Below are positions 17,824 through 43,251 of a stretch of 64,000 nucleotides of DNA, one piece after another. The stretch is taken from contig NZ_JAFKRH010000001.1 of assembly GCF_019038465.1 (NCBI RefSeq), positions 1-64,000 on the forward strand. The letters run 5' to 3'. Origin of the DNA: Synechococcus sp. CCY 0621 (GTDB lineage: Bacteria > Cyanobacteriota > Cyanobacteriia > PCC-6307 > Cyanobiaceae). A program made the translations under genes and the position numbers. Within the stretch, counting starts at the first letter, position 1; every line of letters starts with the position of its first letter. Under the pieces are notes generated by a model. The model had not been told where the DNA came from. It searched no databases and saw only the letters and a list, made by a program, of their open reading frames with translations.

Positions 17824-17935
17824 CAAAACCTAAGGTTGTCTTTGTTGGCCCTATGTCGCTGCCCCGCGAACTACAGGCAGACTTTCAGGAAAGATATCAT
17901 TGCCACAGTGCTACCGCTTGGCCACTATTCCTGTC

Positions 17936-20418: not shown

Positions 20419-20463
20419 CCGTTAACGCTATTACAATCCCCCTGCGTGTACCTGACCTGCGTC

Positions 20464-21582: not shown

Positions 21583-21610
21583 ACAGGGCAGGCCCCAGTG
21601 CCGGGAGCCC

Positions 21611-21886
21611 TCACTCGTGGAACTCCTTCCACAGCAGCCAGTAGGTGAGGTAGCCCAGCAGGGGCAGCAGGACCATCGGGGCCAGGGCGAACAGGGTCAC
21701 CACCGGCGGCAGGTGGAGCACCAACCAGAGCAGCACCAGGCCATAGGCGAGGAAGGAGAGGGCGATGCCCACCCAGCGCTGGCGCAGGCGTTCCTTGAGG
21801 CGCAGCCGCCAGGCCTTGAACCGGCGACGGCGGCGTTGCTCGGGCGGCACGAAGCGCCACCAGTCGCCCTGGGGTCGGGAGCTCAC
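21611..21886 (-). CDS. Small two-helix membrane protein, last gene of the export operon
   Basis: 91 residues: a very basic cytoplasmic N-terminus (EQRRRRRFKAWRLRLKERLR) followed by two hydrophobic helices (about 40-58 and 62-80). Its ATG overlaps the HlyD stop by four bases, so it is translationally coupled to the exporter. No family recognised. The placement suggests an accessory subunit or an unrelated passenger. Confidence 0.7.
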   Translation of the reverse strand: MSSRPQGDWWRFVPPEQRRRRRFKAWRLRLKERLRQRWVGIALSFLAYGLVLLWLVLHLPPVVTLFALAPMVLLPLLGYLTYWLLWKEFHE

Positions 21887-23403
21887 TGGGACCGCAGACG
21901 CTGGAGGTTGCGGCGCTGGTCTTCGAACAGGCCGGTGAGCAGGCTGATCATGCGCCGTTCGCGCAACTTGATGTCGGCGGTGAGGGCCATGCCTGCCTGG
22001 AGCGGCACGCTGCTTTTGTCAGGCAGGGGAATGGTCTGGCGGCCCAGTTTGAGGATGACCGGAAAGTGGAGGCCCTCGGCCTGGGTGCCGAGCACCTGGG
22101 TCTGCTCCTCGGGGGTGAGGGCATCGGAGCCGATGCGCTCCACCTTGGCCGGCAGGTAGCCGAAGGTGCTGGCAGGGAAGGTCTCGATCGAGAGTTCAGC
22201 GCTCTGGCCCACCTGCACGAAGCCGATGGCCTTGTTGGGCAGGTACACCTTGGCCCGCAGGGAGTCCTGGGGCACCACCTTCAGCAGGGGGGTGGTGGCG
22301 TTGACACCCACCACGCTGCCGGCGCTGGCGTCGACGTCGAAGACGAGGCCATCGGCGGGGGCGGTGAGCAGGCCGTACTGGATCTGAAGGCGGGCCTGGC
22401 GGATCTGGGCGTCGAGATCACTGATCTGGCGCAGGTTGGCTTCGATCGCGGTGCGCAGCTCCACATCGGTGCCGGAACCGGTGTTGACCAGCTGGGAGCG
22501 CAGGCGGGCGATCTCGCTCTCCTCTTCGGCCACGCTGGTGCGCAGGTCCTGCATCTTGTTGCGCGCCTCGAGCAGCTGCACCTCGCTGACGGCGCCATCG
22601 CGCACCAGGGACTGATAGCGGCGTTCGATGTCGGCGTAGATGCGCAGGGAATCGCGGTAGCCGGCCAGGCGGGTGGTGCTCTTGGCCAGTTCCTCCCGGG
22701 CGGCGTCCAGGCGGCTGTTGAGCTCGCGGGCGCGGTCGCGCAGCTGGTTCTGCTGGTTGGCGGTGAGGCCGGCGGTGGCGGCCTCCTCCCCGAGGGTGGC
22801 CCTGGCGACGCGGTTCTCGTTGAGCAGCCGCTCGCGGATGCTCTCGGCAGCGGCCAGCTTGCTGCGGGGCTCGCGCAGGTCGAAGCGGATCAGGGGCTGG
22901 CCCTTCCTCACCGCCTGGCCCTCCTTCACCAGCACCTCCTCCACCACGCCGGGGACGGGGGAGGCGACGTCCTTGACGGTGCTGGTGGGCTCGAGCTTGC
23001 CCGGCACGGCCACGGTTTCGGAGATCGGCGCCGTGACGCTCCAGAGGCCGAGGGCGGCCACCCCGCCCACCCCCGCCCAGACCAGCAGGCTGGAGCTGCG
23101 GCGGCTCTTGCGCAGCACCACGGTTTCCCGGAACGACCATTCTTTGGCCGCTTCCGATCCCGTTGGGGTGAGGCCGCTGCCGAAGGGGTGGCTGACGGCC
23201 GAGGGGTCGGTGGGTTCGCTGGTGGGCGGGGCCTCTTCGGCAGGCGCACCGGTGGGAAGGGAATCCTGGCCCACCAGATCGACGCGCACCGGAATCACCG
23301 GGTGGCGGCGGCTGGAGCGGGGGGAGCGCAGCCAGTCGACGCAGCCGTCGAGCAGGGACACCAGGCGGGAGGCGGGATCGGCGGAGCGGGGTGGGGTGGC
23401 CAT
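21883..23403 (-). CDS. HlyD-family membrane fusion protein
   Basis: 506 residues from ATG 23403, which overlaps the ABC transporter stop by one base. There is a long cytoplasmic N-terminus of about 105 residues rich in Pro and Ser, then one transmembrane helix (LLVWAGVGGVAALGLWSV). A biotinyl-lipoyl half-domain follows (ASPVPGVVEEVLVKEGQAV), a long alpha-hairpin of about 180 residues, the second half-domain (TAPADGLVF) and a beta-barrel ending KLRERRMISLL. It would bridge the ABC exporter to an outer-membrane TolC-like channel, which is not encoded here. Confidence 0.92.
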   Translation of the reverse strand: MATPPRSADPASRLVSLLDGCVDWLRSPRSSRRHPVIPVRVDLVGQDSLPTGAPAEEAPPTSEPTDPSAVSHPFGSGLTPTGSEAAKEWSFRETVVLRKSRRSSSLLVWAGVGGVAALGLWSVTAPISETVAVPGKLEPTSTVKDVASPVPGVVEEVLVKEGQAVRKGQPLIRFDLREPRSKLAAAESIRERLLNENRVARATLGEEAATAGLTANQQNQLRDRARELNSRLDAAREELAKSTTRLAGYRDSLRIYADIERRYQSLVRDGAVSEVQLLEARNKMQDLRTSVAEEESEIARLRSQLVNTGSGTDVELRTAIEANLRQISDLDAQIRQARLQIQYGLLTAPADGLVFDVDASAGSVVGVNATTPLLKVVPQDSLRAKVYLPNKAIGFVQVGQSAELSIETFPASTFGYLPAKVERIGSDALTPEEQTQVLGTQAEGLHFPVILKLGRQTIPLPDKSSVPLQAGMALTADIKLRERRMISLLTGLFEDQRRNLQRLRSQ

Positions 23404-26354: not shown

Positions 26355-27181
26355 GGGGCGGGGTCCTCCTGCAGCAGGGCGAGCATCGCGTCGAGGGGCG
26401 GCAGCGGCTGGCCTTCGAGGAGGAGCCGCGCCCGCTGCTCGAGCCATTCCTCGAAGAGTTCGCCCATCATGCGCTCCCTGGTGAGGTCGTTCAACTCGGC
26501 CGGCAGGAACTGTTCGAGCCTCAGCACCACCCAGCTCTCGCCAACCGCGAAGGGTTCGAACAGCTGGCCGGGGCGGCCACGGCGCAGGCGGCTGACCAGG
26601 CTCTCGTGGCCGGTGGCCAATGGCAGGGGGCCGATCTGGCCGCGGCAGTGGCGCTCGGGGCCTTCGGAATGGAGCGGGGCGAGGCTGTCGAAATCAGCTT
26701 CGCCCTCGGCGATCTGGTGGTGCAGCTCGGCGGCGAGGTCCTCACTGTCGACACGCAACAGGGAATAGACCACCTGGTCGAGCTCGGGCTTGCGCTGCAG
26801 GAAGCGCACTTCCACCTCGTCCTCCCAGCGGCAGCGCACCAGGCGCTGCAGGCGCCGTTTCTGGGTGGCGAGGATGCGCAGGTCGTCGAAGACCAGGCCG
26901 CGCTCCTTGAGCCAGCCGGGCACCTGGTCGTCGTCGCTGATGCCACGGCGCTCCAGGAAGGCGGCCATCAGGGCCTTTTCCTCCTCGATGGGCAGGGGGA
27001 TGGCGTGCACGAGCTGATCGAGCACCCAGGCGCGGGCCAGGGGCCGGGCCTGGGCCTGCTGGCGGATGAGGCGGTTGAGTTCGGAGAGGGCCAGCCAGGG
27101 GCGGCCGGGGGGCAGTTCCACCACCGCCGGCTCCGGCAGGCCGGCGAGGGGTTCGGGCAGGGTGTCGCGGGGGGTGCTCAT
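26351..27181 (-). CDS. Parvulin-like peptidyl-prolyl isomerase of the export operon
   Basis: 276 residues from ATG 27181, overlapping the giant glycosyltransferase stop by four bases and the ABC gene by four. The N-terminal part is SurA/PrsA-like helical (LNRLIRQQAQARPLARAWVL). The C-terminal part has a degenerate parvulin core: VVYSLLRVDSEDLAAELHHQ, FDSLAPLHSEGPERHCRGQIG, FEPFAVGESWVVLRLEQF. There is no signal peptide, so it would act in the cytoplasm, perhaps keeping the cargo export-competent. Similar isomerase genes sit beside HetC-like exporters in other cyanobacteria. Confidence 0.78.
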   Translation of the reverse strand: MSTPRDTLPEPLAGLPEPAVVELPPGRPWLALSELNRLIRQQAQARPLARAWVLDQLVHAIPLPIEEEKALMAAFLERRGISDDDQVPGWLKERGLVFDDLRILATQKRRLQRLVRCRWEDEVEVRFLQRKPELDQVVYSLLRVDSEDLAAELHHQIAEGEADFDSLAPLHSEGPERHCRGQIGPLPLATGHESLVSRLRRGRPGQLFEPFAVGESWVVLRLEQFLPAELNDLTRERMMGELFEEWLEQRARLLLEGQPLPPLDAMLALLQEDPAP

Positions 27182-30108
27182 GGGGAGGGCCCCCGGTGGG
27201 GCAGCTGGAGGCGATGGAGGGCCTCGGCCATCAGGGCCAGGCCGCGCTCGCGGCTCCAGGTGGCGCTGGCGTAGCCGAAGGCGGCAGCGGCCATGGCGCG
27301 CCAGGTGTCGTCGTCGTCGTTGAGCTGGAGCACGGCCCGGCACCAGTCGTCGGGGCTGCGGGCGATCAGCACCTCCTGGCCGTGGCGCAGGCCGGTGGCC
27401 TCGGCGGCCAGGGGGCTGAGCACCTGGGGCAGGCCGTGGGCGGCGGCGGCCACCACCTTGCCCTTGAGGCCGGCGCCTGAGCGCAGCGGCGCCACGAAGA
27501 CGCGGTGGCGGGCATACACCGTGGCCGGATCGGCCACCCAGCCCTCGACGACCACGCCGGCTTCGGCACCCCAGCGGGCGGCAAGCCCAGCATCGAGACC
27601 GCTGCCGTAGAGATGCAGCCGCAGCTCCGGCCGCCGCTGCTGCAGCTCCGGCCACACTTGCAGCAGGAAGGCCTCGACCGCATCGCGGTTGGGGGGATGG
27701 CCGTAGCTGCCCAGGAAGGCGAGGCCCGTGCGGCCCTCGAGGGGGGCGGGAGCCTCGGGGCCATGCACCACCCACGGGCAGGGGGCGGTGGCGGCCTCGC
27801 CGAGGGTCTCGGCCTCGATCACCGCCCGCTCCACCTCGGAATAGCTGAAGGTGAGATCCACCTGGCGCATCACGGCCAGTTCCTGGCGCTTCACCTCTTC
27901 CACCGCTTCGAGGGCGCGGCGGCCCGCTTCGCCCTGCAGACCCTCGGCGCGGGCGGCGCGCAGCTGGCGCAGGTGGTGCAGGTCGGCGTTGCAGAAGAGC
28001 AGGCGGGCCTGGGGGGCGTGGAGCTGGATGAGCGGCAGCGCCTGGGCGGCCACGGTGTAGCGGGTGAGGTAGATCAGCTCGAACTCACGGCCCCGCTCCC
28101 GCAGGAACTCCTCCAGGGACAGCACGAAGGGGGCGTGGATGAGCTCGATGCCGCTGCGCTGCAGCTCCTCGCTGTAGCTGGCCAGCCAGGCCAGGTTGAG
28201 GGGCAGCAGCGTGACCTTCCAGCCCAGGTCCTGGAGCAGGCCCATCTCGACAAGGGCCGCATGGCTGCCCGCATCGCGGTCGGGCCGGGGGGTTTCCTGA
28301 TCGAGGCAGAGGGCGCGGCCGAGGATGCCGCGGTCCTTGATGGTTTCCGCGGCGGCGTGGTCGGGTTCGCGGCTGCCCTCGAAGGCGGCGGCCCATTTCT
28401 GCTGGAAGACGGGCCCGTGGACCGCCTGGAAGCGCTTGAGGCCGGTGGTGGCCTCGGTGTCGGTGCCGCAGCTCAGGCCCTCGTGGTGGATCACCCGGGC
28501 CAGGGGGGCATAGCGCACCGTGTGGCCGGCCTGTCGCACCTTGAAGGCCAGGTCAGTGTCCTCGTAGTAGGCGGGGGAGAACTCCGGACTGAAGCCACCG
28601 ATCCCCTTCCACAGATCGAGGCGGATGGCCAGGGCGGCGGCGCTGACGTAGTCCACCTGGCGGGCGTAGGCGACGCGGGGATCGTGGGGGTTGCCGCCGC
28701 GGCCGTAGTTCCAGGGTTCGCCGTTGCCCCAGACGATGCCGCCGGCCTCCTGCAGGCTGCCGTCGGGGTAGAGCAGCTGGGCCCCCACCATTCCGGTGTC
28801 GCTCCAGCGCTCGAAGGGATCGAGCAGCTCCTCCAGCCAGGCGGCGCAGGGTTCGGTGTCGTTGTTGAGCAGCACCAGAAAGGGGGCGCGGGCGGCGGCG
28901 GCGCCGCTGCAGCAGGCCTGGTTGAAGCCGCGGGCGAAGTCGTGGCGGATGACGCGCACCCCGGGGGCGTCGGCAGCCAGGGCCTCGGCGGTGCCGTCGC
29001 TGGAGCCGTCGTCCACCACCACGATCTCCAACGGGATGCGGGTGGGGGCGTAGGCGATCGCCGCCAGGCAGCGGCGGGTGATGCCGTACTGGTTGTGCAC
29101 CGGGATCACGACCGACACGAGGGGATCGGCCGCGATCGGCAGCTGCAGGGACTGGCGCGGCACGGCGCCGCCGTCGGGGCCGGGTTCACTGACCATGACC
29201 GCCGGGGGACCCCCTTCGCTGCGCGGCAGGGGGTGTTCCAGCAGACGCTGCAGCAGGGGCAGATCGGGGGGCAGGGGCGTGCCATCGCTGTCGGACCAGG
29301 CCAGCCAGGTGCGCAGGCTGCGGTAGCGCTCGCGGGCCAGGGGCGAGAGCTCGTCGGGGAAGGGGGGACGGGCGTGCTGCTGCAGGGCCGCCCAGGGGGT
29401 GAGATGGAAGGGCATCAGCTCGAAACGTTGATCCAGCACCTGGCCGGCGCTGGTTTCCAGCTGCAGGTGGTGGAGGCTGCCGTCCGTGAGGGCGGTGGGG
29501 AGCAGCAGCTGGAAGGGCCAGGGCTCCTCCGGCAGCGGCTCGGGGGGTGTGATCGGCAGGGTGGTGCGGCCGTCGAGGCGCAGCAGCAGGGGCTCGGGGC
29601 CACGGCCCCAGCCGTGCAGAAGGGGGGCCTCCAGCCGGGTGAAGGCGCCTTCGCGAATCGGACCGTGCTGGCGCTGCTGGTCGATTTGGCCATAGGTGGC
29701 CGCATCGAGCCGCATCGGACTGCCGGCCAATTCGGTGCCACTGGCCGCGACCAGCACCCGCAGCACCAGCCCCTGGGAAAACGGGGGCAGCGGGTGGGAG
29801 GGGCCCCACCAGAAGCGGAAGCCGCAGGGCTGCTCGATGCCCAGCGCCTGCAGATCAGGCCGGGCCTGGGCCGCCATCAGTTCGGCGACCAGCTGGTGCT
29901 GGCCGGGGTCGAGCAGGTCGTCGATCACCATCTGCAGGTGCAGTGGCGCGGCCTGGGGCTGCAGGGGCCAGGGGCAGGCCCAGCCGCACAGGCCGCCCTG
30001 CGGGCTCCAACCCTCGAGCCGGCCCACCAGGCCGGGGCGACGCCATTCAGCGAGGGAGGCGGTGGGGGTTTCCAGGGTGCCGGGCGGCTCGGCGAGCATC
30101 GCAGCCAT
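27178..30108 (-). CDS. Large two-headed glycosyltransferase (GT2 plus GT4 domains)
   Basis: 976 residues. The first 320 residues are a beta-rich region of unknown role. A complete family 2 domain follows (about 330-580): VSVVIPVHNQ, EIVVVDDGSSDGTAEA, LVLLNNDTEP and the catalytic-type AYYEDTDLAFKVRQAG. A GT-B family 4-like domain ends the protein (about 610-960): LAFLGSYGHPPNRDAVEAF, VFVAPLRSGAGLKGKVVAA. Two active domains could add successive sugars. It heads the five-gene secretion operon with four-base overlaps, tying glycosylation to export. Its start nearly coincides with an alternative start of the divergent gene on the plus strand. Confidence 0.87.
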   Translation of the reverse strand: MAAMLAEPPGTLETPTASLAEWRRPGLVGRLEGWSPQGGLCGWACPWPLQPQAAPLHLQMVIDDLLDPGQHQLVAELMAAQARPDLQALGIEQPCGFRFWWGPSHPLPPFSQGLVLRVLVAASGTELAGSPMRLDAATYGQIDQQRQHGPIREGAFTRLEAPLLHGWGRGPEPLLLRLDGRTTLPITPPEPLPEEPWPFQLLLPTALTDGSLHHLQLETSAGQVLDQRFELMPFHLTPWAALQQHARPPFPDELSPLARERYRSLRTWLAWSDSDGTPLPPDLPLLQRLLEHPLPRSEGGPPAVMVSEPGPDGGAVPRQSLQLPIAADPLVSVVIPVHNQYGITRRCLAAIAYAPTRIPLEIVVVDDGSSDGTAEALAADAPGVRVIRHDFARGFNQACCSGAAAARAPFLVLLNNDTEPCAAWLEELLDPFERWSDTGMVGAQLLYPDGSLQEAGGIVWGNGEPWNYGRGGNPHDPRVAYARQVDYVSAAALAIRLDLWKGIGGFSPEFSPAYYEDTDLAFKVRQAGHTVRYAPLARVIHHEGLSCGTDTEATTGLKRFQAVHGPVFQQKWAAAFEGSREPDHAAAETIKDRGILGRALCLDQETPRPDRDAGSHAALVEMGLLQDLGWKVTLLPLNLAWLASYSEELQRSGIELIHAPFVLSLEEFLRERGREFELIYLTRYTVAAQALPLIQLHAPQARLLFCNADLHHLRQLRAARAEGLQGEAGRRALEAVEEVKRQELAVMRQVDLTFSYSEVERAVIEAETLGEAATAPCPWVVHGPEAPAPLEGRTGLAFLGSYGHPPNRDAVEAFLLQVWPELQQRRPELRLHLYGSGLDAGLAARWGAEAGVVVEGWVADPATVYARHRVFVAPLRSGAGLKGKVVAAAAHGLPQVLSPLAAEATGLRHGQEVLIARSPDDWCRAVLQLNDDDDTWRAMAAAAFGYASATWSRERGLALMAEALHRLQLPHRGPSP

Positions 30109-30163: not shown

Positions 30164-31834
30164 ATGGACCCGGCAGGCGGAGAACCGGCGGTACGGGTGC
30201 CGCTGCGGCTGCTGCGGGAGCTGGCGCTGCCCTACCCGGCCTATCACCAGCTGATCGCGTCGCTGCGGCCCGAGGCCAGCGGGGCTGGTGAGGATCCCCT
30301 GCTGGCGGAACTGGCGGAAGCCAGTGCGGCGGCCCTGCGGGAAGCCCTGGAACACGGCCGCCTGGAGGCGGCCCTGGCCGCCCACGATGATCTGCTGGGC
30401 CATGTGATCGAGCTGGCGGCGGCGCGGCCGGAGGTGGCGACGGTGCTGTGGCAGCGCTACGGCGACCTGCTCGGCCAGCTGACGGGTCAGGTGCACGAGC
30501 GGTTGGTCCCCCGCAACGGCGAGCCGGTTGATTTCAGCCTCCCTGAACGGGCCGGCGACGGGGCGCTCTGCCTGCGCATGGCGGCGATCCTGGAGCCGAC
30601 GGCGGGCCAACCCTGGACGGTGCCCGACTGGCTGCCGGTGTTGGAGCAGCAGCTGGTGCAGCACGGAGCCCTTGCCTGGCAGCAGAAGGTTTCGGTGGAG
30701 GCGGCCGCCGCCGGGCCCTGCCTGGATCTGTTCCTGCGCCTTTGCCAGCTGCTGGATCCCGTGCCGGTGTGGGTGGACCTGGCCTGCCGCACGGCGATGG
30801 GCCAGGTGATCGAAGCCCTGCCGCCCGCCGGCGCCCTGGCGGAGCCGGAGCTGGCCCTGCTGGTCGCGCGGGTGGGCCGTCTGCCGGTGGCGGCGGAGCA
30901 GCGAGCGGCCTTCGATGCCGCCCTACTGCGGGCCCGCTTCAGCCTGGAGCTGCTGCAGCAGGGCCGTGACGTCAGGCGCCCCGGCGACGGCGAGGGTGTG
31001 GAGGTGCTGGAGGCGGAATGGCTGGAGGACGAAGCGCCCGATCCTGGGGCGGCGGGCTCCCTGCCGGCGGTGGAGTGGCGCCCAGGCGCTCTGGTGGTGG
31101 AGCTGGATGCGCTGGAGCTGCAGCTGCTGCACCACGCCGAAGGGGCGGCCGAGCCCCTGGAGGAGGCCTTGGCCGAGCTGCGCCGCCGCCACCACGACAG
31201 CGACTTCTGGAACGCGCCTGCTGCGGAGGCGTTGGGGGCGGAGCCTGACCCGCTGGAGCTGCTGCGGCGCTTCGAGCTGGAGGCCGGCTTCTACGCCACC
31301 ACCCAGGCACCGCTGGAGAGCCTGCGGCAGTGGGCCCGACCGGCGTTGCAGGCCCTGCTGCAGGCCCAGGTGTGGAGCGCCGCTGCGGCCACCCACGACC
31401 TGTGGCAGCCCTGGGGGCAGCCGGGTCAGCGGCGCCAACCGCCGCGCGGCTCCGAGCTGCTGGAGCGGCTCGGCGGTGGTGAGGTGCTGCTGGTGGGCGA
31501 GGGCCCCGAAGCCACCGAGGCGCTGCTGGAGGCCCACCGGGCCGGGCGGTTGTTCCCAGGGGGGGCGTTCGGCCTGCGCTGCCTGGCGGTGCCCCAGAGC
31601 CGCCACCCGCAGCGGCCCGCCGCGGGTTTCGAGTACAGCCTGGAGGCCCTGGTGGCGGCGGTGGAGGCGCTCTACCAGGAGCGGCCGTTCACGGTGCTGC
31701 TGGCCGGGGGCGGGGCCTACCGGCTGCCCCTGGCCCAGGCGATCGGCAGCCGCTACGGGGTGCTGGCGGTGGCGGGGGCCACGGGTCTGGCGGCGTGGCT
31801 GGGGGCCGAGGCGGCGCCGGAGCTGGGCCGATGA
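30164..31834 (+). CDS. Hypothetical protein, possible GT-D-like C-terminal domain
   Basis: 556 residues from ATG 30164; ATG 30107 is in frame but would overlap the divergent gene. Residues 1-430 are Leu/Ala/Glu-rich and probably helical. The C-terminal 120 residues (EVLLVGEGPEATEALLEA, then FTVLLAGGGAYRLPLAQAIG, then YGVLAVAGATGLAAWLG) look Rossmann-like. The ordering resembles GT-D glycosyltransferase domains (VGDGE-like then GAGxLGK-like). That resemblance is weak and by eye only. It is coupled by ATGA overlap to the next small gene and diverges from the export operon. Confidence 0.65.
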   Translation: MDPAGGEPAVRVPLRLLRELALPYPAYHQLIASLRPEASGAGEDPLLAELAEASAAALREALEHGRLEAALAAHDDLLGHVIELAAARPEVATVLWQRYGDLLGQLTGQVHERLVPRNGEPVDFSLPERAGDGALCLRMAAILEPTAGQPWTVPDWLPVLEQQLVQHGALAWQQKVSVEAAAAGPCLDLFLRLCQLLDPVPVWVDLACRTAMGQVIEALPPAGALAEPELALLVARVGRLPVAAEQRAAFDAALLRARFSLELLQQGRDVRRPGDGEGVEVLEAEWLEDEAPDPGAAGSLPAVEWRPGALVVELDALELQLLHHAEGAAEPLEEALAELRRRHHDSDFWNAPAAEALGAEPDPLELLRRFELEAGFYATTQAPLESLRQWARPALQALLQAQVWSAAAATHDLWQPWGQPGQRRQPPRGSELLERLGGGEVLLVGEGPEATEALLEAHRAGRLFPGGAFGLRCLAVPQSRHPQRPAAGFEYSLEALVAAVEALYQERPFTVLLAGGGAYRLPLAQAIGSRYGVLAVAGATGLAAWLGAEAAPELGR

Positions 31835-33811: not shown

Positions 33812-33883
33812 GGCTCAGGGCAGCACTGTTTTCAGTCATGAACCATGGCCAGGTTGTGGGGAAAGCAACGGCCCTGGCGTGCG

Positions 33884-34708
33884 ATGGAACGGGTGAACGG
33901 CAGTCACCTCAGTGCCAGTGAGCTCAATCGTCGAGGGATCGCCGCCAGTGAAGAGGCCCTGCAAAGGGGCCCGGTGCATCTGATGAAGCGGATCCATACG
34001 GCAGCGGTTGTGCTGAGCGAAAGCCACTACCTGCAGCTGTGCCAGCGGGCTTCCCTGGCCCCTGAGGTTTCTGCTTTGGAGTGGCTGGTCAGCTGCCCAG
34101 CGGCAGCGCAGGGCCGCACCAAGAAGGAGATCGATGGGCTCAAGGTTCGTGAGCCGTGGGTTCACGGCGTGAAACGGGCGCTGGCGGAACTGGCTGCCAC
34201 CGACCCAGGAATGGGTACGGCCGTGAGTCGTCTCAGCTGGATGGAATGCCGTGTCGGACCTCTGCGCCGCCACGATCCAGCCACCCTGGCGACCTTTGAT
34301 GCCTTTTTCTCCCGCACGGATCTCATCTGGCTGGAGCTCACGGCTGCTGTGTTTGAGCTGGCCACCGACCTGCGCGGGCGTCACAGCCTGCGCACGCCGG
34401 TTGCGCTGCAGGTCGCCTGTTGCCTCCAGCTAGGTGGTGGGGCGGTGATGAACACCAGAGATCCGCCCGTTCGGAAGGGGACGCACTTCGATCTGCTGGC
34501 CTGGCCGAGCACCGTGATGGCGCAGCAGCTCAGCCAGGATCGCGATCAGCCCGCACCTCAGGGGAAGGCATGGAATCGAACCCGTAAGGACGCCTTACGA
34601 CAAGGAGGCCTCCGGCCTAAAGTGGTGTTCAGTGACTGGTTTGCCAGCGATGGAGGTCGCCACACTCACCGCCAAGGGGCAGGTCACGGTGCCGAAGGCG
34701 GTGCGTGA
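33884..34708 (+). CDS. Degenerate in-frame fusion of Phd antitoxin and PIN toxin
   Basis: An open frame (ATG 33884; an earlier ATG at 33845 is also in frame) whose first 85 residues look like a Phd antitoxin: SASELNRRGIAASEEALQRG, VVLSESHYLQL and RTKKEIDG. The next 120 look like a PIN ribonuclease: MECRVGPLRRHDPATLATF, VFELATDLRGRHSLRTP. The first PIN strand with its catalytic Asp is missing. The usual TPDAL is TPVAL and the TND motif is disrupted (NTRD), so nuclease activity is unlikely. The last 60 codons read into the next operon and look like run-on after stop loss. Probably a remnant made by a deletion joining the two genes. Confidence 0.5.
   Translation: MERVNGSHLSASELNRRGIAASEEALQRGPVHLMKRIHTAAVVLSESHYLQLCQRASLAPEVSALEWLVSCPAAAQGRTKKEIDGLKVREPWVHGVKRALAELAATDPGMGTAVSRLSWMECRVGPLRRHDPATLATFDAFFSRTDLIWLELTAAVFELATDLRGRHSLRTPVALQVACCLQLGGGAVMNTRDPPVRKGTHFDLLAWPSTVMAQQLSQDRDQPAPQGKAWNRTRKDALRQGGLRPKVVFSDWFASDGGRHTHRQGAGHGAEGGA
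34583..34613. promoter_or_regulatory. Operator-like palindromes ahead of the AbrB/PemK pair
   Basis: CGTAAGG-ACG-CCTTACG (34583-34599) is a perfect 7-bp inverted repeat, and GGAGGCCTCC (34604-34613) is a perfect 10-bp palindrome. They lie 37-67 bases before the antitoxin ATG at 34650. Type II antitoxins commonly bind such palindromes to repress their own operon. The assignment is by position only. Confidence 0.5.
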
Positions 34709-34874
34709 GGCCCTGGGATTGCGGCAAGGCGATCAACTCAGTTGGGAGCTTGAGGACGGTTCGGTGCGCGTGCGGGCCGTGGCGCCGTTGGATCTGGCCT
34801 ATCTGCAGGGGCTGGAGAGCAGCCTGAACGAGTGGAGCAGCCCGGAGGACGAGGAGGCGTTCCGCGATCTGTGA
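34650..34874 (+). CDS. AbrB/MazE-like (SpoVT-AbrB domain) antitoxin
   Basis: 74 residues from ATG 34650. The first 45 residues are a textbook swapped-hairpin AbrB domain: TLTAKGQVTVPKAVREALGL, RQGDQLSWELEDGSV. The acidic C-terminal tail (EWSSPEDEEAFRDL) is the kind of segment that wraps and blocks a toxin. It would neutralise the downstream PemK-like toxin and repress the operon. The stop overlaps the toxin's GTG start (GTGA). Confidence 0.88.
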   Translation: MEVATLTAKGQVTVPKAVREALGLRQGDQLSWELEDGSVRVRAVAPLDLAYLQGLESSLNEWSSPEDEEAFRDL

Positions 34875-35215
34875 GCGTCCTCGACCGCCATACGGTGGTT
34901 CGGGTGCCGTTCCCCTTCACGGATCGGGAGGCCCCGAAGCTAAGGCCGGCCTTGGTGCTCTCCCAGCCCGAATTCCAGCGAGGCTGCGGCCATCTGCTGC
35001 TGGCGATGATCACATCAGCGCGGCAATCCTCGTGGCCCCTCGATTGGCCCATTGAAGATCTGCAGGCCGCCGGCCTGCCCCAGCCCTGCCTGGTGCGTTT
35101 CAAGCTGTTCACCCTGGATGAGCGGCTGGTGCTGGGGAGCCTGGGTTCTTTGGCCGCCGCCGATCGGACAGGTGTAGCGGCCCGGCTGGGCAAGCTTCTA
35201 CCCACTGGGCCGTGA
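34871..35215 (+). CDS. PemK/MazF-family endoribonuclease toxin
   Basis: 114 residues starting at GTG 34871, overlapping the antitoxin stop by four bases. PemK/MazF features: VVRVPFPFTDREAPKLRPAL (the conserved P-F-x-F-T-D ... K-x-R-P-A-L block), the central LLLAMITSARQ strand with the catalytic-site Thr-Ser, and a C-terminal KLFTLDERLVLGSLG. It is predicted to cut mRNA when free of its antitoxin. The pair looks intact, unlike two neighbouring decayed modules in the window. Confidence 0.88.
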   Translation: MSVLDRHTVVRVPFPFTDREAPKLRPALVLSQPEFQRGCGHLLLAMITSARQSSWPLDWPIEDLQAAGLPQPCLVRFKLFTLDERLVLGSLGSLAAADRTGVAARLGKLLPTGP

Positions 35216-35293
35216 GCAAGGCCCCCTCAAGGCTCGCAGGCGGGCAGGCCCGACAGCAGGCGGCAGAGGGGACAGGGCTGACTGAAAGTCACT

Positions 35294-35580
35294 TCAAGCT
35301 GTTTCTGCTGGGCTGGTGCCAACCCAACACAGCATTCGGTGGATGTCATGCGCCACTGCCATTGGCCAGCACGGATTGACCGAAAGCTGTTGCAGCGCAA
35401 CAGGTTGAGAGCCAAGGTGCGCAGCAGGGCCAGGACCTGCACCCCATGGCGCTGGCTGTAGCGTTGGGCGTCCTCACCGACCTGTGTGTCGCGGGGCCAA
35501 TGCCACTGGTTTTCGATCGCCCAGCGTTGCCGCATCAGGCGCAGCAACGCTTTTGGGCTGGTTCGCAGGGCGGGATGTAG
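35294..35580 (-). pseudogene. ISAs1-family transposase, C-terminal remnant with frameshift
   Basis: Reading leftwards from about 35580, LRTSPKALLRLMRQRWAIEN then HWPRDTQVGEDAQRY and VLALLRTLALNLLRCNSFRS match the C-terminal part of ISAs1 DDE transposases. Near 35380 the match moves to another frame, which continues MAVAHDIHRMLCWVGTSP and stops at 35294-35296. The original frame runs on meaninglessly to 35227. The N-terminal two-thirds and both terminal repeats are absent. It marks the left edge of the low-G+C island. Confidence 0.75.
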
Positions 35581-36171
35581 ACGCAGTCTGCCGGTAAGGA
35601 ATTATCTTCATAGTTGACATTTAGAGAGTACCGACTATTGATCTGGCATGCATCGGCTTAAGACATAAACTTGATCAGTTCGTATGCGTTTCGGATCTCA
35701 GTTTATGGCTAAAGATAGAGTGATTCCTTTAGGAGTCTGAAAGAACTTACCTGATTGTCGGTGGCTTTTGAAGACTGGGGTAAGCCAGCAGCGCGCCTAC
35801 GGAAAGTCTACTGATTGAAAGGGGAGATTGCGTATACAGGTGAACGATGTGCCCATCAAGAGATCTGCCCGATGATCATCATGAACAGACCAAGTGAGCG
35901 TTGGGAGCGTCGGAGAGTTTAAAGAGTCTGCAATGTGGGATTAGGTGCCGTCCAGTCCTGATGAGATGCTCACGTCTTCAGTGGATACTCAGATGAAATT
36001 CAGAACAAACCAGAGATTCTAAGGGTCTGCAGGCGCAGAAACGTTCACGCTAGCTTCCCTGCAGTTCCAGTGAAGACCCTTACAATGGGTTGGCAACATT
36101 GTAGGGGTTAAGGTTGTTGGAACTTGTTTCCATAAGCTAAAGGCCATTCATCTCTGATCAATCTTCGAATC
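35581..36171. other. 591-bp AT-richer non-coding stretch
   Basis: No supported gene. It starts where the transposase match ends and is visibly poorer in G+C than the preceding 30 kb. It holds a TTGACA hexamer (35614-35619) with TATTGA 16 bases downstream, a weak possible promoter; a palindrome GATGATCATC (35871-35880); and a long inverted repeat at 36076-36108 (listed separately). It may be decayed insertion-sequence or genomic-island DNA. Confidence 0.5.
36076..36108. repeat. 12-bp inverted repeat upstream of the pyruvyl transferase gene
   Basis: ACCCTTACAATG (36076-36087) and CATTGTAGGGGT (36097-36108) can pair over 12 positions with one G-T pair, around a 9-base loop. It ends 63 bases before the ATG at 36172. 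It lacks a T-run, so it is not an obvious terminator. A regulatory hairpin, an operator or an old IS end are all possible. Confidence 0.55.
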
Positions 36172-37308
36172 ATGCCTCCACAAACGTTCTACATCTATGG
36201 CTACTATGGATCAAAGAATGCCGGCGACGAGGCCTTTCGATTAGCATTTCGGCATATACTTCCATCGCATTCAAGTCTTCGATTCATCAGGCCATCAGAA
36301 CTCGCAGACAACTTGGATCTCAGTAGCCAGATCCGTCAGGATGTTGCTGCTGGCAAAGCGCGCTTAATTGTGGGCGGTGGCGCAATTATTGGCGAGCCCT
36401 ACTTCTGGGCTCATTTGCCAGCCGAAACACCATTTCATGTGATTAGTGCTGACATTGGATCACAGGACAATCTTGTCAATAGGTACATTCCTAGCCTCGC
36501 CCAGATGCAAACATCCTGGATTCGTAGCGAGACTGATGCGGCACAGCTTCGAAAATTGACATCCTTAGATCGCAGTATCTCATACCTACCCGATATCGTG
36601 CATTCGCTTGGGCCGAGTCCTGAAGATAGTCAGGTGGTTGCCAGCCTTGACCGAGCAACCCGTAATCGTCGGCTTTTGGAACTCATGGAGAAATATTGCG
36701 AAAATACGCAGAGTCCAGACAAGTTAAGAGATAAAAACATGGCCATATTCTTGTCTGATCATTATTATGACTACAAGACTATTCAAAGCGGAAATGTGCT
36801 TGAAGCTCTTGAGCGCGAGGCTTCCGACAGGATATTCCTCCGTAATCTACGACTCTCCTTTGATGAGATCAGTCCGTACTATAATCTCTATTTCTTTAGC
36901 CTAAGCTACTGGTATAATTCAATTGACGCTTTTGTCGGATATCGCCTGGCGAGGGCCTCCAGTCAGTCAGTTCAATACAATATTCTATCTCGCTATATCG
37001 ATCCGGCTGAGATCTTGAGTTTGATGCCCTATTTTGACACAGCTGTTTCGATGAAGTTTCACGGCTTGATCTTCCCCTTGACGGCCGGCATTCCAGTGAT
37101 GAATATTGGCAACTCAAAAAAGAATCAAGACCTTGCGCGCCAAATGGGTATCGTATCAGTGTCGCCAGAAGAGATGACGATGCCATTGTTTATGACAGCA
37201 CTCAAGCAAGTTGAGTCTATTGAGTATTCTACGTCACTGACTGAAAGTCAGCGACTCGCAAGAGAGGCGATCCACGTGACATTCTCTAATCCTGACTTAT
37301 GGGACTAA
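36172..37308 (+). CDS. Polysaccharide pyruvyl transferase family protein
   Basis: 378 residues. The start YIYGYYGSKNAGDEAFRLAF is the classic G-x-x-N-x-G-D-E opening of CsaB/WcaK-type pyruvyl transferases. Residues near 60-75 give RLIVGGGAIIG, and the C-terminal SMKFHGLIFPLTAGIPVMNIG is the conserved H-G-x-I/L..P block. Enzymes of this family put ketal pyruvate on surface polysaccharides, which can anchor S-layer proteins carrying SLH domains. One 60-base sample inside the gene (36181-36240) is 48% G+C, against 77% in a sample at 30421-30480. It converges with the next gene by 12 bases. Confidence 0.85.
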   Translation: MPPQTFYIYGYYGSKNAGDEAFRLAFRHILPSHSSLRFIRPSELADNLDLSSQIRQDVAAGKARLIVGGGAIIGEPYFWAHLPAETPFHVISADIGSQDNLVNRYIPSLAQMQTSWIRSETDAAQLRKLTSLDRSISYLPDIVHSLGPSPEDSQVVASLDRATRNRRLLELMEKYCENTQSPDKLRDKNMAIFLSDHYYDYKTIQSGNVLEALEREASDRIFLRNLRLSFDEISPYYNLYFFSLSYWYNSIDAFVGYRLARASSQSVQYNILSRYIDPAEILSLMPYFDTAVSMKFHGLIFPLTAGIPVMNIGNSKKNQDLARQMGIVSVSPEEMTMPLFMTALKQVESIEYSTSLTESQRLAREAIHVTFSNPDLWD

Positions 37309-39453
37309 GGAATGAAAAAGCTCATCATTGTCAATGAGATTGATTAGGTCTTTCATATTTACCGTGATGACGCATGTTCTGCAGTCAAACAGATTAAAGA
37401 AGATACGAACTTCCTCCCTCTGCACCAATACCGAGCTCACGTAGCAGACACCTTCATTCTTGCGAAAGCCATGATCCTTGGCAAGGGCCTGTGTATTCAC
37501 TGATAGGATTGGCTCACGGCTTATGCTCATCGGCTCAAGGCTTTCGCTTGAGATAGTCATCAGAAATTGGTCATAGATATATGAACCTAGTCGACGTCGG
37601 TGAACGATCATTGCAAGGCCTCGTTCTTCCTTCCCATCGTGCAGCATGAAGGGATGTGCACTATTGCGAATTGGGCAGTTTAAAGCGGCTGGTAGATTCA
37701 GCGTTTTATGATGAACTTGATGCCAATCTAGTAGGCTGCTATCGGCACGGAAGACTTGCCAAGGCTGGACTGAATAGAACAGGTAAGCTTGATTGTCCTT
37801 TTCATGGATGAGCCAGTTCTTTTCGAAGCCGCTTGGCAACTGAGAAGTGTTCTGATGGTGTTCGCTAAGCCGATGCAGGATTGGCAATCCCTCAAAATGA
37901 ATGACGCCCTGTTCAGGGTCTAAGCGCCCCAATGCTTGGACGACTAGCATGTCGTCGATGGTATTGTTCGCGGCTGCATTCGTGGAAATTTTGGGTAGCC
38001 ATTTCTGATAGCGAGTTCGAGATAAAATGACTGCTCCAATGGCGTAGATGTTGCCTTGATAGGCGAATAGCCTCAAGTCTTCTATCTTACACTCACTTGG
38101 ATAGCCGATGTAGACTAATGGCTTGACTTGAAGCCTTTTAGGATCTGCTAAACTGCCTGAGGCGGGCTGCTCCCATCCTAGGAAGTTAATCGATGGATGT
38201 CGTCCAACATCCGCACGTCGTCCAGACCAGCTGTCAAAATTTCGTTCATAACGCCACGTAGAAACTACCGTCTCTTGAGTTGCTAGCAGTGATTGGTTCA
38301 TCACCCCCGACGGACCATGGCCGGATAGCCCTCTGACGATGGCATAGCGATCCGAAAGATGTTGACAAGGAGTCAGTGAAAATCCTGCCATCTCGCTTTG
38401 AACGAGGAGTCCTTCCACCAGGCAACTGCGCGTTGATTTCGGGGAGAGCAGGGAAGCTGTCCTGTCCGCACCGACCAGTGTTTCCTGCACCGGTGATTCC
38501 ATGGCCTTGTGAAGAAAGGCACCATCCCCCAGTTGATAGTCAGCGGGATCCCTGAACACTAAGGTCGACATGCTGTCGATAACAGGTCCATAGCATGAAT
38601 CGACGAGTAGAAATTCGGAAGGTCTTGTTAGGGGTTTAGGGCTTAGCAGAAGATAGGCATCAATGCCACGGTTGAGGGAAAATGGGACCGGCTTACGGCT
38701 ATCGAAGTAGGTGGAAAAACTATGAAAGCCGGGTTTGGAGATTGAGACCTTGCGGGTGGAGAGCGGAGCGCATATCAGCGAATCTTTTTTGTGACTAAGC
38801 TTTTTCAGTAATGGCGTGACTTCAGCCACCAGATGAAAGAGTCGCATCTCGCCGACGATGGCAATGAATGGATGGGGGATCAGAAGATACGCGTGGTACC
38901 CATCGTGCGGTTGGTTAGCGGCGATTTGGAGATGCCATAATCCACCCCCAAGGGACTCCTTGCCAACATAGATCGATTCGTCGCTAGCTCTGGACATGCC
39001 ATCTCTCTGTGACTCCATGCCGAAGTAATTGGCCAGTTGGTTGCCGAAGCAGAACTGGTCAACCTGGTGCGATGTCTCCAGCTGCGTACTTTGATGGAGG
39101 ATCTCGGATTCTTGAATTTCCTGATCGAGACCATGCAGGAACCAAGCCTCATGGCTGCGGTCGTCGTAGACACCATGGAAGGCACACAGGAAGCGATAGC
39201 GCAGCAGCAATTCGGTGACAGTTGTCAGCCGTTGCTTCTGGCTTGAGTGCAAGGCCAGCGACTGGTAATAGGCGAATACCAGGGATTCACCTAAGCCCGC
39301 CTTTGCTTCTTGCAAGAGCACCGATTTCTCGATGCGTTGGAGGCCGCCGGCTAGGAGCAGAGCGGCTGACGCTGTGAAGTGCTCAGAGATGCCAATGACC
39401 TTCAGCAGTTCAGATGCGATTGGAGCCAGCGGCTCCCCAGCTTGATGGTTCAC
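37297..39453 (-). CDS. Putative beta-propeller carbohydrate-active protein (718 aa)
   Basis: 718 residues without signal peptide or membrane helix. The first 120 residues are helical; the remainder is beta-rich. From about residue 560 the pattern EKNWLIHEKDNQAYLFYSVQ, NCPIRNSAHPF, MIVHRRR and FRKNEGVCYVSSVLV resembles five-bladed propeller glycosidases or phosphorylases of the GH130/GH43 type, but catalytic acids were not identified. Its ATG overlaps the 394-residue gene's stop (ATGA), so they are a coupled pair. Lower G+C than its surroundings. The activity is unknown; handling of a surface glycan is inferred from context. Confidence 0.6.
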   Translation of the reverse strand: MNHQAGEPLAPIASELLKVIGISEHFTASAALLLAGGLQRIEKSVLLQEAKAGLGESLVFAYYQSLALHSSQKQRLTTVTELLLRYRFLCAFHGVYDDRSHEAWFLHGLDQEIQESEILHQSTQLETSHQVDQFCFGNQLANYFGMESQRDGMSRASDESIYVGKESLGGGLWHLQIAANQPHDGYHAYLLIPHPFIAIVGEMRLFHLVAEVTPLLKKLSHKKDSLICAPLSTRKVSISKPGFHSFSTYFDSRKPVPFSLNRGIDAYLLLSPKPLTRPSEFLLVDSCYGPVIDSMSTLVFRDPADYQLGDGAFLHKAMESPVQETLVGADRTASLLSPKSTRSCLVEGLLVQSEMAGFSLTPCQHLSDRYAIVRGLSGHGPSGVMNQSLLATQETVVSTWRYERNFDSWSGRRADVGRHPSINFLGWEQPASGSLADPKRLQVKPLVYIGYPSECKIEDLRLFAYQGNIYAIGAVILSRTRYQKWLPKISTNAAANNTIDDMLVVQALGRLDPEQGVIHFEGLPILHRLSEHHQNTSQLPSGFEKNWLIHEKDNQAYLFYSVQPWQVFRADSSLLDWHQVHHKTLNLPAALNCPIRNSAHPFMLHDGKEERGLAMIVHRRRLGSYIYDQFLMTISSESLEPMSISREPILSVNTQALAKDHGFRKNEGVCYVSSVLVQREEVRIFFNLFDCRTCVITVNMKDLINLIDNDELFHSLVP

Positions 39454-40634
39454 GACGCGGCTATCAAGGTAAGTCTGAAGTCACGCAGGACTCGATGGTA
39501 AGTGTCATCAATGATGGAATCCTGGTGCTGGGGCAGAATCTTCTCAAGCGGAATGTCACCGAGTCTTTCGGCCGGTAGCGATTGCAGCTGCTGTTGGAGT
39601 GAGCCATAGAGTCCAGCACTGATTGGGGGATCTTGGAAGCCCTTGATGCGCCATTTGAGTAGCTCTTTTATTGTCAGGTGCGGTGTGCATTGGCAGCTAG
39701 AGCATTCATGAGACTCCCTGAGACTAGTGATCAGAATGCGTATCATCTTCCGGCGCTCTTTGTTGATATTGCGATGCACATAATGAACCACATCGCCGAG
39801 ATCGTGCGGAATCATGTCGGGATGCAGGAGATCGGAGGCCCTCAGGGCATTGGCATGGCAAAGATCTGGCATGAGAAGCTCCAGGGAAGCAGCGGCAAAG
39901 TGGTGCACTGCAGCAAGAGCACTGACCTGGTGCTCCATGATGTCTGAATCCGCCAGAGGTAAAGCCAAATGGGCAAATCCAATCCAGTTACGTCGTCTTA
40001 GTGCGGCAACACTTGTCCAATATCGAAACCAATAATTGCAGGCATCTCTCTGGAGGGCTTCTGCAAAGTCGCTATATCCGTCGACCCCACTCACTTCGGC
40101 CAGCAATCCCTTGAGTGCATGAGTCCAGGCCTCGTCAGGGGCTAGCTCTTGCATGCGGCCAACGCAATCGCGGAGGCTGTCAGAATCGTTGGCCCGGTGG
40201 GCCTGCAAGCCATTCGCTACCAGGCCCTGCTGCTGAAGCTCATCTCTTTTCTTCCCAATGGGTTCTATGCATGAGAGTGGCTGTCTTGGAGGACTTGTGC
40301 TTTCTGATCTCACGCAATGGTCGCCATCGACTTCGGCTAGGTTTGATAACTTCTCCCACACCTCTGGCGATCTGGGATGATGCAATAGGCTCTTTCTTAG
40401 CTTTACAGCAACTGAATGTAGTTCCATGCCGGCCCCGGGAAGTTTGAGCAGAAGTGATCGGAAGGATTCGGATGGGAGGTGGAATGAGTCTCTTCGTTCT
40501 CTGAATGCATGCAACCAATACCATTTCGCATTCAGTGTCGTTGCCTCCGGATTGGGACTTGACATCACAGAATGATTCTGACGTATGTCTATCAAGGGCG
40601 AGTAAGTAGCTGATGAGAGTAGCCTTGAGTGCAC
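39450..40634 (-). CDS. Unrecognised helical protein (394 aa) coupled to the propeller gene
   Basis: 394 residues from 40634; the ATG at 40565 (MSSPNPEA) is an alternative start. Mostly helical, with stretches suggesting TPR-like pairs (AWTHALKGLLAEVSGVDGYS, NYWFRYWTSVAALRRRNW), and a CSSCQC cysteine cluster near residue 310. There is no membrane segment. I recognise no family. The four-base overlap with the propeller gene and the shared low G+C suggest both came in together and work together. Confidence 0.6.
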   Translation of the reverse strand: MHSRLLSSATYSPLIDIRQNHSVMSSPNPEATTLNAKWYWLHAFRERRDSFHLPSESFRSLLLKLPGAGMELHSVAVKLRKSLLHHPRSPEVWEKLSNLAEVDGDHCVRSESTSPPRQPLSCIEPIGKKRDELQQQGLVANGLQAHRANDSDSLRDCVGRMQELAPDEAWTHALKGLLAEVSGVDGYSDFAEALQRDACNYWFRYWTSVAALRRRNWIGFAHLALPLADSDIMEHQVSALAAVHHFAAASLELLMPDLCHANALRASDLLHPDMIPHDLGDVVHYVHRNINKERRKMIRILITSLRESHECSSCQCTPHLTIKELLKWRIKGFQDPPISAGLYGSLQQQLQSLPAERLGDIPLEKILPQHQDSIIDDTYHRVLRDFRLTLIAAS

Positions 40635-40949
40635 TGTAAGTATGAATGAGCCCAGGGTGACAATCTGTGCCGTCTGCTCCGCTCGGTGATTGATCGGGCT
40701 TCGCTTGGCGGTACTGCCGGTTGTCCCAGTGACTTCTGCTGGATTTGAATCGTTTGGCTTCCTTGAATCAATGCTTTGCGGATTGGGATGCTTTCGACAG
40801 AATCTAGATCGTTATCTTGCTGCAGATCATCCATCTTCAGATGGACTCGTTGATGACGTGCTTGTCTGAACAGATCCCTGTCAACGAGGAATCCCACCTG
40901 GTATAGGTGCAGAGTCCTTGGCGGGTGAGGTCTGCCCTGTAGTGGGCTG
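40635..40949. other. 315-bp gap in the island; nothing supported
   Basis: Several short open frames occur on both strands but none has protein-like composition or a recognisable motif. No tRNA, terminator hairpin with T-run, or strong promoter was seen. It may hold the promoter of the downstream 394-residue gene. Confidence 0.4.
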
Positions 40950-41837
40950 TTAACGGTTGGCCGTAATCACCAAAATCCCGGGTAGATCCGCGCCCAGAAT
41001 CCCATGCTTCCAGCTGGAAATGTGTTGGATGCTGGCATCGCAAAAGCCTGCCACTACGAGTTGCTCAATCAACTCCCAGCCTGGAATGCGATACACCACT
41101 GTTCCTGAATCCACTGGATCGCCATGTCGTTCTGCTATGTCGAGAAAAACTGGTGCTCCACCGTTTGGATCAGGCAGGGCTTTGATGATCGACTGCCGTT
41201 GGCCAAATGCCATCGGGCAGGTGGCGACGAGTTGACCTCCAGGCCGTAGTACCCGCACGATCTCTTTGAATGCAACGTCAAGATCTCTCACCTGCTCAAA
41301 GATTTCGTTGCATAGAACCAGATCAAAGCTCGCATCAGGAAAGGTGAGCGAACATAAATCCTGATGGAGCATCTCAAGATCCACGCTCTGGCCCTTCTCC
41401 ACAAGCTCGCTGCAAATCAGTCGATTCTTTGCTAGATGCTTGCGTAGCCAGTCGGTCATCCCTGATGGGCTCTCTGCGAAAAAAATATCAAGCTGTTCCA
41501 GGGCCTCCAGGGTCCCATAGCATGCTTCCAGTGTATGGAGAAGGCCGCGATTGCGGCTCAGGAGTCCATTGGCGATGATGGATTCTCGATAGTTTGATCC
41601 TAGGATCTGAATGGACTCCGGAGGCATGTATCTCCCTGAGAGTGGTTCAACAAACCCCAAAGCCCTGGTGACTTCAATGCATTGCTCAAGGAGGGTTCCC
41701 TTCTGCAGCAGGGTTGGCAGATCATCCCTGAACTCTTCGAAGCTCTCATAACTACGAGATTGATCGTGCAGTGCCAGTACGTCTTCGCAAGGCATCGACA
41801 GCGGGCGGTTGGGGTTATCCACCAGGTGTTTACTCAC
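40950..41837 (-). CDS. SAM-dependent methyltransferase (class I, Methyltransf_11-like)
   Basis: 295 residues. The class I core is visible: DLCSLTFPDASFDLVLCNEIFEQV (split here as DLCSLTFPDASFD and LVLCNEIFEQV) and EIVRVLRPGGQLVATCPM, the standard motif IV/VI region. The glycine-rich motif I is not classical: where it would be, IICxELV-type sequence is preceded by a DIFFAESPSG segment. The N-terminal 90 residues form a helical cap. Such enzymes often methylate sugars or lipids in glycan clusters; here the substrate is unknown. It has lower G+C than its flanks. Confidence 0.75.
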   Translation of the reverse strand: MSKHLVDNPNRPLSMPCEDVLALHDQSRSYESFEEFRDDLPTLLQKGTLLEQCIEVTRALGFVEPLSGRYMPPESIQILGSNYRESIIANGLLSRNRGLLHTLEACYGTLEALEQLDIFFAESPSGMTDWLRKHLAKNRLICSELVEKGQSVDLEMLHQDLCSLTFPDASFDLVLCNEIFEQVRDLDVAFKEIVRVLRPGGQLVATCPMAFGQRQSIIKALPDPNGGAPVFLDIAERHGDPVDSGTVVYRIPGWELIEQLVVAGFCDASIQHISSWKHGILGADLPGILVITANR

Positions 41838-42021
41838 GAGCTACACAATCCTAAGTCAATCGGCTGCCCCAGCAAGGCTGCCATTCCCCAAGGCATGGCT
41901 CAGACAGCATGCTTCATGGGCGAGGACGGGAGCAGGGTCCCGCTGCAGCCAGCAGGCTGCGGCAAAACGGAAGAGAGCTCCCATGCCATTGGCAACATCC
42001 TCCGACCCTGCCAATAGCGAA

Positions 42022-43251
42022 TTACAGCACCTTCAAGCTGAACTGGGGTGCCATGGAAGACATGCCCCAGGCCGCCACAACATCAGTTCCGCTCCACACC
42101 ACAAGTTCGACCAAATCTCCGATATGCACGTTGCCGCTCAACCCTCCCGTGGTCTCCCGTTGCACGTCGTACGGCCTCAGGGCTTCCGCTTGCCAGGGGA
42201 ACTCCAGCGTCGGTCGACTTAGGTCCAGCGCTGCACCGTTCTCCAGCACCGGGAACACCCGAATCCGTGCCTGGCCGGCGATCGACAGCGACACGGCCAG
42301 GGTCTGGCCCGCGCGCATCAGGGCATAGACCGGAACTCCGGGGACCAGGCTGCCGCTCAGAGTGTCATGGGGGAGGCCCTGGTTGAACGGGGCGCAGGCC
42401 TGCGCCGCCAGCTCCCGGATCGCCTCGGGCACCTGCAGAGGATCGGCGGTACGGAAGAACTGCTGGTCCGGGAGGCCGATCGCATCCGCCATCGCCCGGC
42501 TGTACACCGACGACTGCACCTCTCGGCTGAACTCTCCCCGGCCGAAGAACTGTCGCGCCGCCTGGAAGCTGCCCTGCAGTCCTTCGTCGCCGTGCAGGTG
42601 GAAGTAGAGGCAGTTGTAGAAGCCGAACTTGATGCTGGCGCCGTAGGGGCTGCGCACGGTGGTGAGGTGGGCGCCGCCGCAGAGGGCCTCCGGCAGGAAG
42701 TCCTCGCTGGCCACCGCCGCCTGCTCCACCCCCACCAGCCAGAGGTAGTCGAGGTGGCGGGCGGCCGTGATCGCCCCGCGCTTGAAGGCGAACGGTTTGC
42801 GGGCCACCAGCGGGCTTCCCAGCTTGCCGCACACCAGATTCAGATAGGTGAAATTGACGCAGTCGAAGCTGGCCACCAGCGCCCGGCTCTCCCAGAAGCG
42901 TTCCACCGCCGCCCGGTCGAGCAGCAGAAGTTCATCGGCATCCACCGACAGCACCACATCGCCGCTGGCCAGTCCGTAGCCATGGATCCGCTTCTCCCGC
43001 TCGCCGGCGAACACGCCGTGGTGGTAGTGGATCGGCACCCCCAGCCGCCGGGCGAGCCCTGCGAACAGCCCGGCGGCCCGCGGGCTGGGCTGCTCCAGAT
43101 CCCGCCCCACCAGCGGTTCGAGCAGGTCTCGGGTGAACTGGAATGGTCCGTCGTTCACCACGATCTCGTCGACCCAGGCGAGCCGCTCCACCACCCGCTC
43201 GATGAAATCGAAGTCCTCGAAGAACTGGATCACCACCGAGACGCTGGCCAT
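42022..43251 (-). CDS. Family 2-like glycosyltransferase with C-terminal beta domain
   Basis: 409 residues. The N-terminal GT-A-like part opens ASVSVVIQFFEDFDFIERVV, then VDEIVVNDGPF, and has a likely metal-binding DVVLSVDADELLLLD. After about residue 300 a beta-rich domain follows (IRVFPVLENGAALDL, VELVVWSGTDVVAAWG), perhaps carbohydrate-binding. G+C is back at the high background level. It starts four bases from the stop of cysS upstream on the same strand, so it is probably read from the polA-rfbD-rfbB-cysS transcript. Confidence 0.78.
   Translation of the reverse strand: MASVSVVIQFFEDFDFIERVVERLAWVDEIVVNDGPFQFTRDLLEPLVGRDLEQPSPRAAGLFAGLARRLGVPIHYHHGVFAGEREKRIHGYGLASGDVVLSVDADELLLLDRAAVERFWESRALVASFDCVNFTYLNLVCGKLGSPLVARKPFAFKRGAITAARHLDYLWLVGVEQAAVASEDFLPEALCGGAHLTTVRSPYGASIKFGFYNCLYFHLHGDEGLQGSFQAARQFFGRGEFSREVQSSVYSRAMADAIGLPDQQFFRTADPLQVPEAIRELAAQACAPFNQGLPHDTLSGSLVPGVPVYALMRAGQTLAVSLSIAGQARIRVFPVLENGAALDLSRPTLEFPWQAEALRPYDVQRETTGGLSGNVHIGDLVELVVWSGTDVVAAWGMSSMAPQFSLKVL

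Follow-up and report, generated by a model that had tools for sequence, protein, structure and literature searches.

Surface-coat variation by swappable cassettes is already familiar in bacteria, and gene clusters for O-chains, capsules, and glycosylation in aquatic prokaryotes are described as replacement flexible genomic islands (PMC4033161). RTX S-layer proteins that carry glycans are known from cyanobacteria, among them SwmA of Synechococcus (PMC3034196). At the enzyme level, residues H308 and K328 of P. alvei CsaB are critical for PEP binding (PMC10435577), and the GH130 and GT108 families have a common five-bladed propeller and comprise inverting phosphorylases or transferases (PMC8950772).

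The 64,000-nucleotide stretch of Synechococcus sp. CCY 0621 DNA analyzed here (the window) contains a 6.8-kb block of sugar-modifying genes at a fixed site, which carries low-GC surface-glycan cassettes that are interchangeable and vary from strain to strain. We consider it likely that this block is one allele of a replacement glycan island that makes a strain-specific modified surface glycan, outside the CsaB/SLH pathway. The features of the locus are as follows.

27178 to 30108, - strand: GT2+GT4 glycosyltransferase (GT976; PF00535/PF13692), conserved left neighbor
34632 to 34874, + strand: MazE/AbrB-type antitoxin (PF04014, E 8.5e-12), conserved left flank
34832 to 35215, + strand: PemK/MazF-type toxin (PF02452, E 6.4e-11), conserved left flank
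35206 to 42024, no strand: the replaced segment (island), delimited by the loss and return of nucleotide homology (blastn) to sister genomes
35227 to 35547, - strand: C-terminal remnant of an ISAs1-family transposase (NF033564 positions 267-314 only, 47.6 bits)
36172 to 37308, + strand: PyrT, 378 aa, polysaccharide pyruvyl transferase superfamily (PF04230, E 7.9e-7), not CsaB
37297 to 39453, - strand: U718, 718 aa, with a helical N terminus and a C-terminal GH130/GT108-like beta-propeller (predicted fold)
39450 to 40427, - strand: U394, 325 aa, TPR-like helical partner, with an ATG start backed by alignment with six homologues
40950 to 41837, - strand: MT295, SAM methyltransferase (PF08241, E 7.4e-15)
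42022 to 43251, - strand: U409, 409 aa, conserved right-flank gene, 70 to 80% identical in nine sisters

Composition and borders of the island

The earlier note had described a low-GC glycan island from about 35.6 to about 42 kb, and sliding-window GC bears this out. Positions 35600-42000 have a GC content of 0.503 versus 0.700 elsewhere in the window, the lowest value among other windows of equal length (n = 223) is 0.665 (mean, 0.701; SD, 0.016), and the profile has its sharpest drop at 35,600 and recovers at ~42,000. Two 60-base samples that had been quoted are exact on recounting (29 G+C at 36181-36240 and 46 at 30421-30480). Codon usage, suggested as a check, is shifted in all four island genes, with distances of 0.69 to 0.87 versus 0.17 to 0.34 for 15 flank genes, and GC3 is 0.49 to 0.55 in the island and 0.75 to 0.94 in most neighbors. 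The glycan island and its foreign composition are thus supported, and its gene content is broadly as first described, with a PF04230 protein (E 8e-7), a methyltransferase (E 7e-15), and two family-less proteins. An Rfam scan of 34.5 to 42.3 kb gave no match. Elsewhere in the window, a smaller GC dip (about 60%) holds a 220-aa open reading frame at 59514-60176 (- strand; 59% GC) with no Pfam family, and a full-length DUF5996 protein (E 8e-144) is encoded at 60362-61303 (+ strand).

Homology to sister loci (blastn) ends on the left at 35205 (loci L040 and L041), at the end of the MazE/PemK pair, and resumes on the right at 42025 (L023, L024, L026, L027, and L029), at the end of the 409-aa gene that precedes what we take, from reading its sequence, to be cysS. 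A chimeric contig was considered and rejected, since both flanks and the gene neighborhood of the cassette recur in other genomes. The description of the island as bordered by toxin-antitoxin and IS remnants holds on the left side, where the toxin-antitoxin pair (34632-35215) and the ISAs1 fragment (35227-35547) are located, but not at the right edge, where no IS was found. Left-flank DNA at the antitoxin is 86 to 88% identical in two sisters, and the toxin has a homologue at the equivalent place in L040 (84%). The ISAs1 remnant scores below the 70-bit NF033564 cutoff, and no second copy that could act as a mobilizing element was found in the genome, so IS-driven insertion is not supported. 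A 287-aa open reading frame at 33845-34708 is probably not a gene and matched no Pfam or credible NCBIfam family on scanning. Two of the sister loci contain partial left-flank duplicates on the far side of the inserted cargo (L040:7607-8036 and L041:15369-15645), consisting of the 3' end of a 467-aa gene and the antitoxin region, which are possible scars of past insertions.

One site with different cargo in sister genomes

The site is set between a conserved T1SS/glycosyltransferase block and a U409-cysS-dTDP-rhamnose block. The left block is conserved in the sisters examined and contains a presumptive dxr, named by reading of its sequence, followed by genes for GT9, GT2-like, RTX-like, TPR+GT9, GT4, HlyD, T1SS ABC, and GT976 proteins, the last of which is 84 to 90% identical in sisters. 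The right neighbors of U409, itself without a Pfam or NCBIfam family, include cysS and dTDP-rhamnose genes, with RmlD above its cutoff. Sister loci were taken as the neighboring DNA of nine genomes of the genus with close U409 homologues; both flanks are seen in seven of the nine, and the contigs of the other two (G011 and G012) end within the cargo.

The segments between the flanks are GC-poor in all nine sisters examined, with 1-kb minima of 40 to 54%, and low GC is therefore a feature of the cargo at this site and not of the window allele alone. The cargo itself varies. A set of GT47, unknown, and GT61 genes is common to G002, G015, and G003, and GT2 and GT4 genes are common to G006 and G010, with a sulfotransferase also found in G010. 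G019 combines a GT4 with an AlgX-like protein and a PF04230 protein different from PyrT; in G012 a GT2+GT4 protein is accompanied by a weak match to a sulfotransferase; and GT2 and GT4 are present in G011. U718 is absent from the other 41 genomes of the genus, such that the cassette is present in 1 of 42, and the sisters have in common the site, with its low GC, but not the genes. Homologues of the same composition and order being core in sister strains, which the earlier note held would refute its reading, are thus not what the genus contains. As in replacement islands, the flanks are conserved at the site in nine sisters and different genes of similar function are located there. No pair of close strains sharing the window allele was found, and the sister comparison is one between species.

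The PF04230 protein of G019 (L039:5237-6415) has a GC content of 46% and is encoded beside an AlgX/SGNH-like protein. It is unrelated to PyrT, which indicates that pyruvylation-type genes have entered the site more than once.

The methyltransferase appears to have a different history from the genes behind it. The window MT groups with sister MTs from L035 and L039, whose cargo differs (support 96/97), and the MTs of cassettes in a second genus (g9) form a separate group (100/100) with the window MT outside; the window MT is flagged as a long branch, so the tree is moderate evidence. Because the window MT clusters with sister MTs of other cargo and not with g9 cassette MTs, the tree suggests that MT is resident at the site, as the first gene of several alleles, and that the genes behind it are exchanged. 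Exchange would probably occur by recombination in the conserved flanks. The 522 nt between U394 and MT (40428-40949) contain no convincing gene, the corresponding genes nearly abut in other genera, and the gap is a possible remnant of a cargo junction. The start of U394 is probably at 40427 (325 aa) rather than at 40634. A 101-aa open reading frame at 40592-40897 is probably not a gene, having no counterpart in the cassettes of relatives.

The cassette and its neighbors in other genera

Ten of 400 sampled genomes of the family carry U718, and in g9 the cassette is present in 6 of 25 genomes; one g9 member is recorded as Vulcanococcus and others as Synechococcus or Cyanobium MAGs. All complete loci (g9, g45, and g47 genomes) have the order MT, U394, U718 with PyrT convergent, and they lie beside genes homologous to GT976, TPR712, and T1SS of the window. 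Identities to the window are 63 to 70% for PyrT, 50 to 60% for U718, 37 to 45% for U394, and 41 to 45% for MT. GT976 homologues beside the cassette in other genera are 54 to 57% identical, and the T1SS, HlyD, and GT976 neighbors are 50 to 60% identical between the window and g9. The ends of PyrT and U718 overlap by 12 nt, as they do in several relatives. No near-identical donor was found (the best PyrT is 70% and the best U718 60% identical); recent exchange was therefore not observed directly. Searches of viral contigs with a U718 alignment, of plasmid records for U718, and of phage records for PyrT yielded no relatives.

The like neighbors and gene order in other genera, a divergence from the g9 copies that resembles that of the neighbors (about 50 to 60%), and the fact that the g9 cassette genes are also GC-poorer than their own surroundings are what would be expected if the locus were ancient, had descended vertically in these genera from their common ancestor, and had disappeared from most strains, with a low GC that reflects relaxed composition and not foreign origin. 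We regard this as unlikely, however, as carriers are restricted to 1 of 42 genomes in the genus and 6 of 25 in g9, the cassette is inverted relative to GT976 on the T1SS side when the window is compared with g9, MT tracks the genus whereas sisters have the rest of the cargo replaced, and a GC3 of 0.49 to 0.55 in a genome at ~0.9 is improbable for a long-resident gene.

Within the conserved block at 14739-30108, whose T1SS ABC protein has a cNMP domain and whose HlyD/T1SS/GT976 part is likewise found beside the cassette in other genera, a 265-aa RTX-like protein, rich in Ser/Thr and bearing five repeats of GxGD(D) type, is encoded at 16943-17740 (- strand), adjoining the T1SS ABC/HlyD pair. It is ~80% identical in three sisters, and its gene accounts for a second GC dip at 17 to 18 kb. 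The cargo could glycosylate this presumably T1SS-exported surface protein and so tune an S-layer or coat comparable to that built with SwmA, an idea encouraged by the grouping of T1SS ABC, HlyD, the RTX-like protein, and several glycosyltransferases in one conserved block beside the site and by the known cyanobacterial precedents (PMC3034196). It is nonetheless doubtful, as the RTX-like protein is without a Pfam match and, in the one g9 genome with a readable upstream region, did not turn up close to the cassette, and neither an oligosaccharyltransferase nor linkage evidence was found.

PyrT, U718, and the likely glycan product

PyrT matches PF04230 with 29.7 bits, above the gathering cutoff of 25.3, over its C-terminal domain only (228-315). 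Against the CsaB model TIGR03609 it scores 40.8 bits, far below the curated cutoff of 213.1, and a comparison of PyrT and CsaB profiles (E 3.5e-5) gives an alignment covering the C-terminal motif, in which His297 and Lys317 are paired with the CsaB His and Lys and the Arg of the RxH motif is replaced by Lys. On this alignment His297 and Lys317 are taken to be counterparts of H308 and K328 of P. alvei CsaB. The matching His and Lys make pyruvyl transfer plausible, and membership in CsaB is rejected. The bona fide CsaB of this genome is encoded on another contig (G000:C31; 329.7 bits) and is core to the genus, being present in 41 of 42 genomes with the lone exception only 78% complete.

These results bear on the proposal that the island makes a pyruvylated wall polymer anchoring SLH-domain S-layer or porin proteins, as the earlier note had supposed for an S-layer. 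PyrT does belong to PF04230, and SLH-domain proteins are present in the genome, on other contigs. But the separate, core CsaB, the low score of PyrT, and the rarity of both the cassette (1 of 42 genomes) and the PyrT profile (matched at E <= 1e-10 in 2 of 386 genomes from a phylum-wide sample) make a basic anchoring function unlikely, and we regard SLH anchoring by the island as highly improbable. The accompanying suggestion of a changed surface coat remains plausible, by a route other than SLH anchoring. As far as family membership goes, the cassette lies outside the CsaB/SLH anchoring pathway, and a pyruvyl transferase match should not be read as S-layer anchoring where a core CsaB exists.

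Neither U718 nor U394 has a match in Pfam or NCBIfam. The U718 model is of moderate confidence (pLDDT 67, pTM 0.53), with a helical N terminus and a beta-rich C-terminal half, and in a fold search with it the top 34 PDB matches are all GH130-type (E 6e-10 to 1e-6), including mannoside phosphorylases, the Uhgb_MS synthase, and structural-genomics glycosidases. PF04041 was not matched in eight U718 homologues at E values up to 10, PDB sequence searches with U718 and PyrT profiles gave chance matches only, and hhalign and shuffled alignments of U718 with GH130 are not significant; the resemblance is therefore kept at the level of predicted fold, and U718 is a predicted glycoside phosphorylase/glycosyltransferase. 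The U394 model is all-helical (pLDDT 77), with weak TPR fold matches (best E, 0.005).

In the replacement island that we favor, the window allele would contribute the U394/U718 pair and the PF04230 enzyme, with U718 probably building or recycling a glycan, of beta-mannoside type judging by its fold, U394 acting as a putative TPR scaffold, and PyrT, from its family, adding pyruvate ketals from PEP. The product would be a surface glycan or glycoprotein decoration modified in a strain-specific way, and altered recognition by phages and grazers is a likely benefit. A bolder reading, which we offer tentatively and consider somewhat improbable, is that U718 founds a new GH130/GT108-like beta-glycosyltransferase/phosphorylase family with its own N-terminal domain and that freshwater picocyanobacteria use it, with U394 and the non-CsaB PyrT, to make a pyruvylated surface glycan not described before, possibly a beta-mannan and linked to a coat of T1SS/RTX type. 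The locus is a mapped hotspot for variation in the surface glycans of high-GC freshwater picocyanobacteria; its borders are clean, its cargo is of at least four types, and loci of this type are expected to govern phage and grazer recognition. U718 and U394 represent two protein families, conserved but unannotated, for which the predicted folds supply a concrete hypothesis.

Of the described systems, CsaB is like PyrT in superfamily and in the His and Lys of the C-terminal motif but differs in family score and in the motif Arg. The GH130/GT108 mannoside phosphorylases/transferases resemble U718 in the predicted propeller and, by eye, in the order of an E-D-x-R motif (EDLR, 458-461) followed by K-N (EKNW, 544-547), but U718 lacks PF04041 and significant profile or pairwise similarity and has ~370 extra N-terminal residues. 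The closest likeness is to replacement flexible genomic islands, in which one chromosomal site with one functional theme, the exposed surface structures, has entirely different genes in each strain and IS elements are not needed, with the differences that replacement is seen here among species of one genus, whose flanks are some 80 to 92% identical, and that the site adjoins a T1SS/RTX-like locus.
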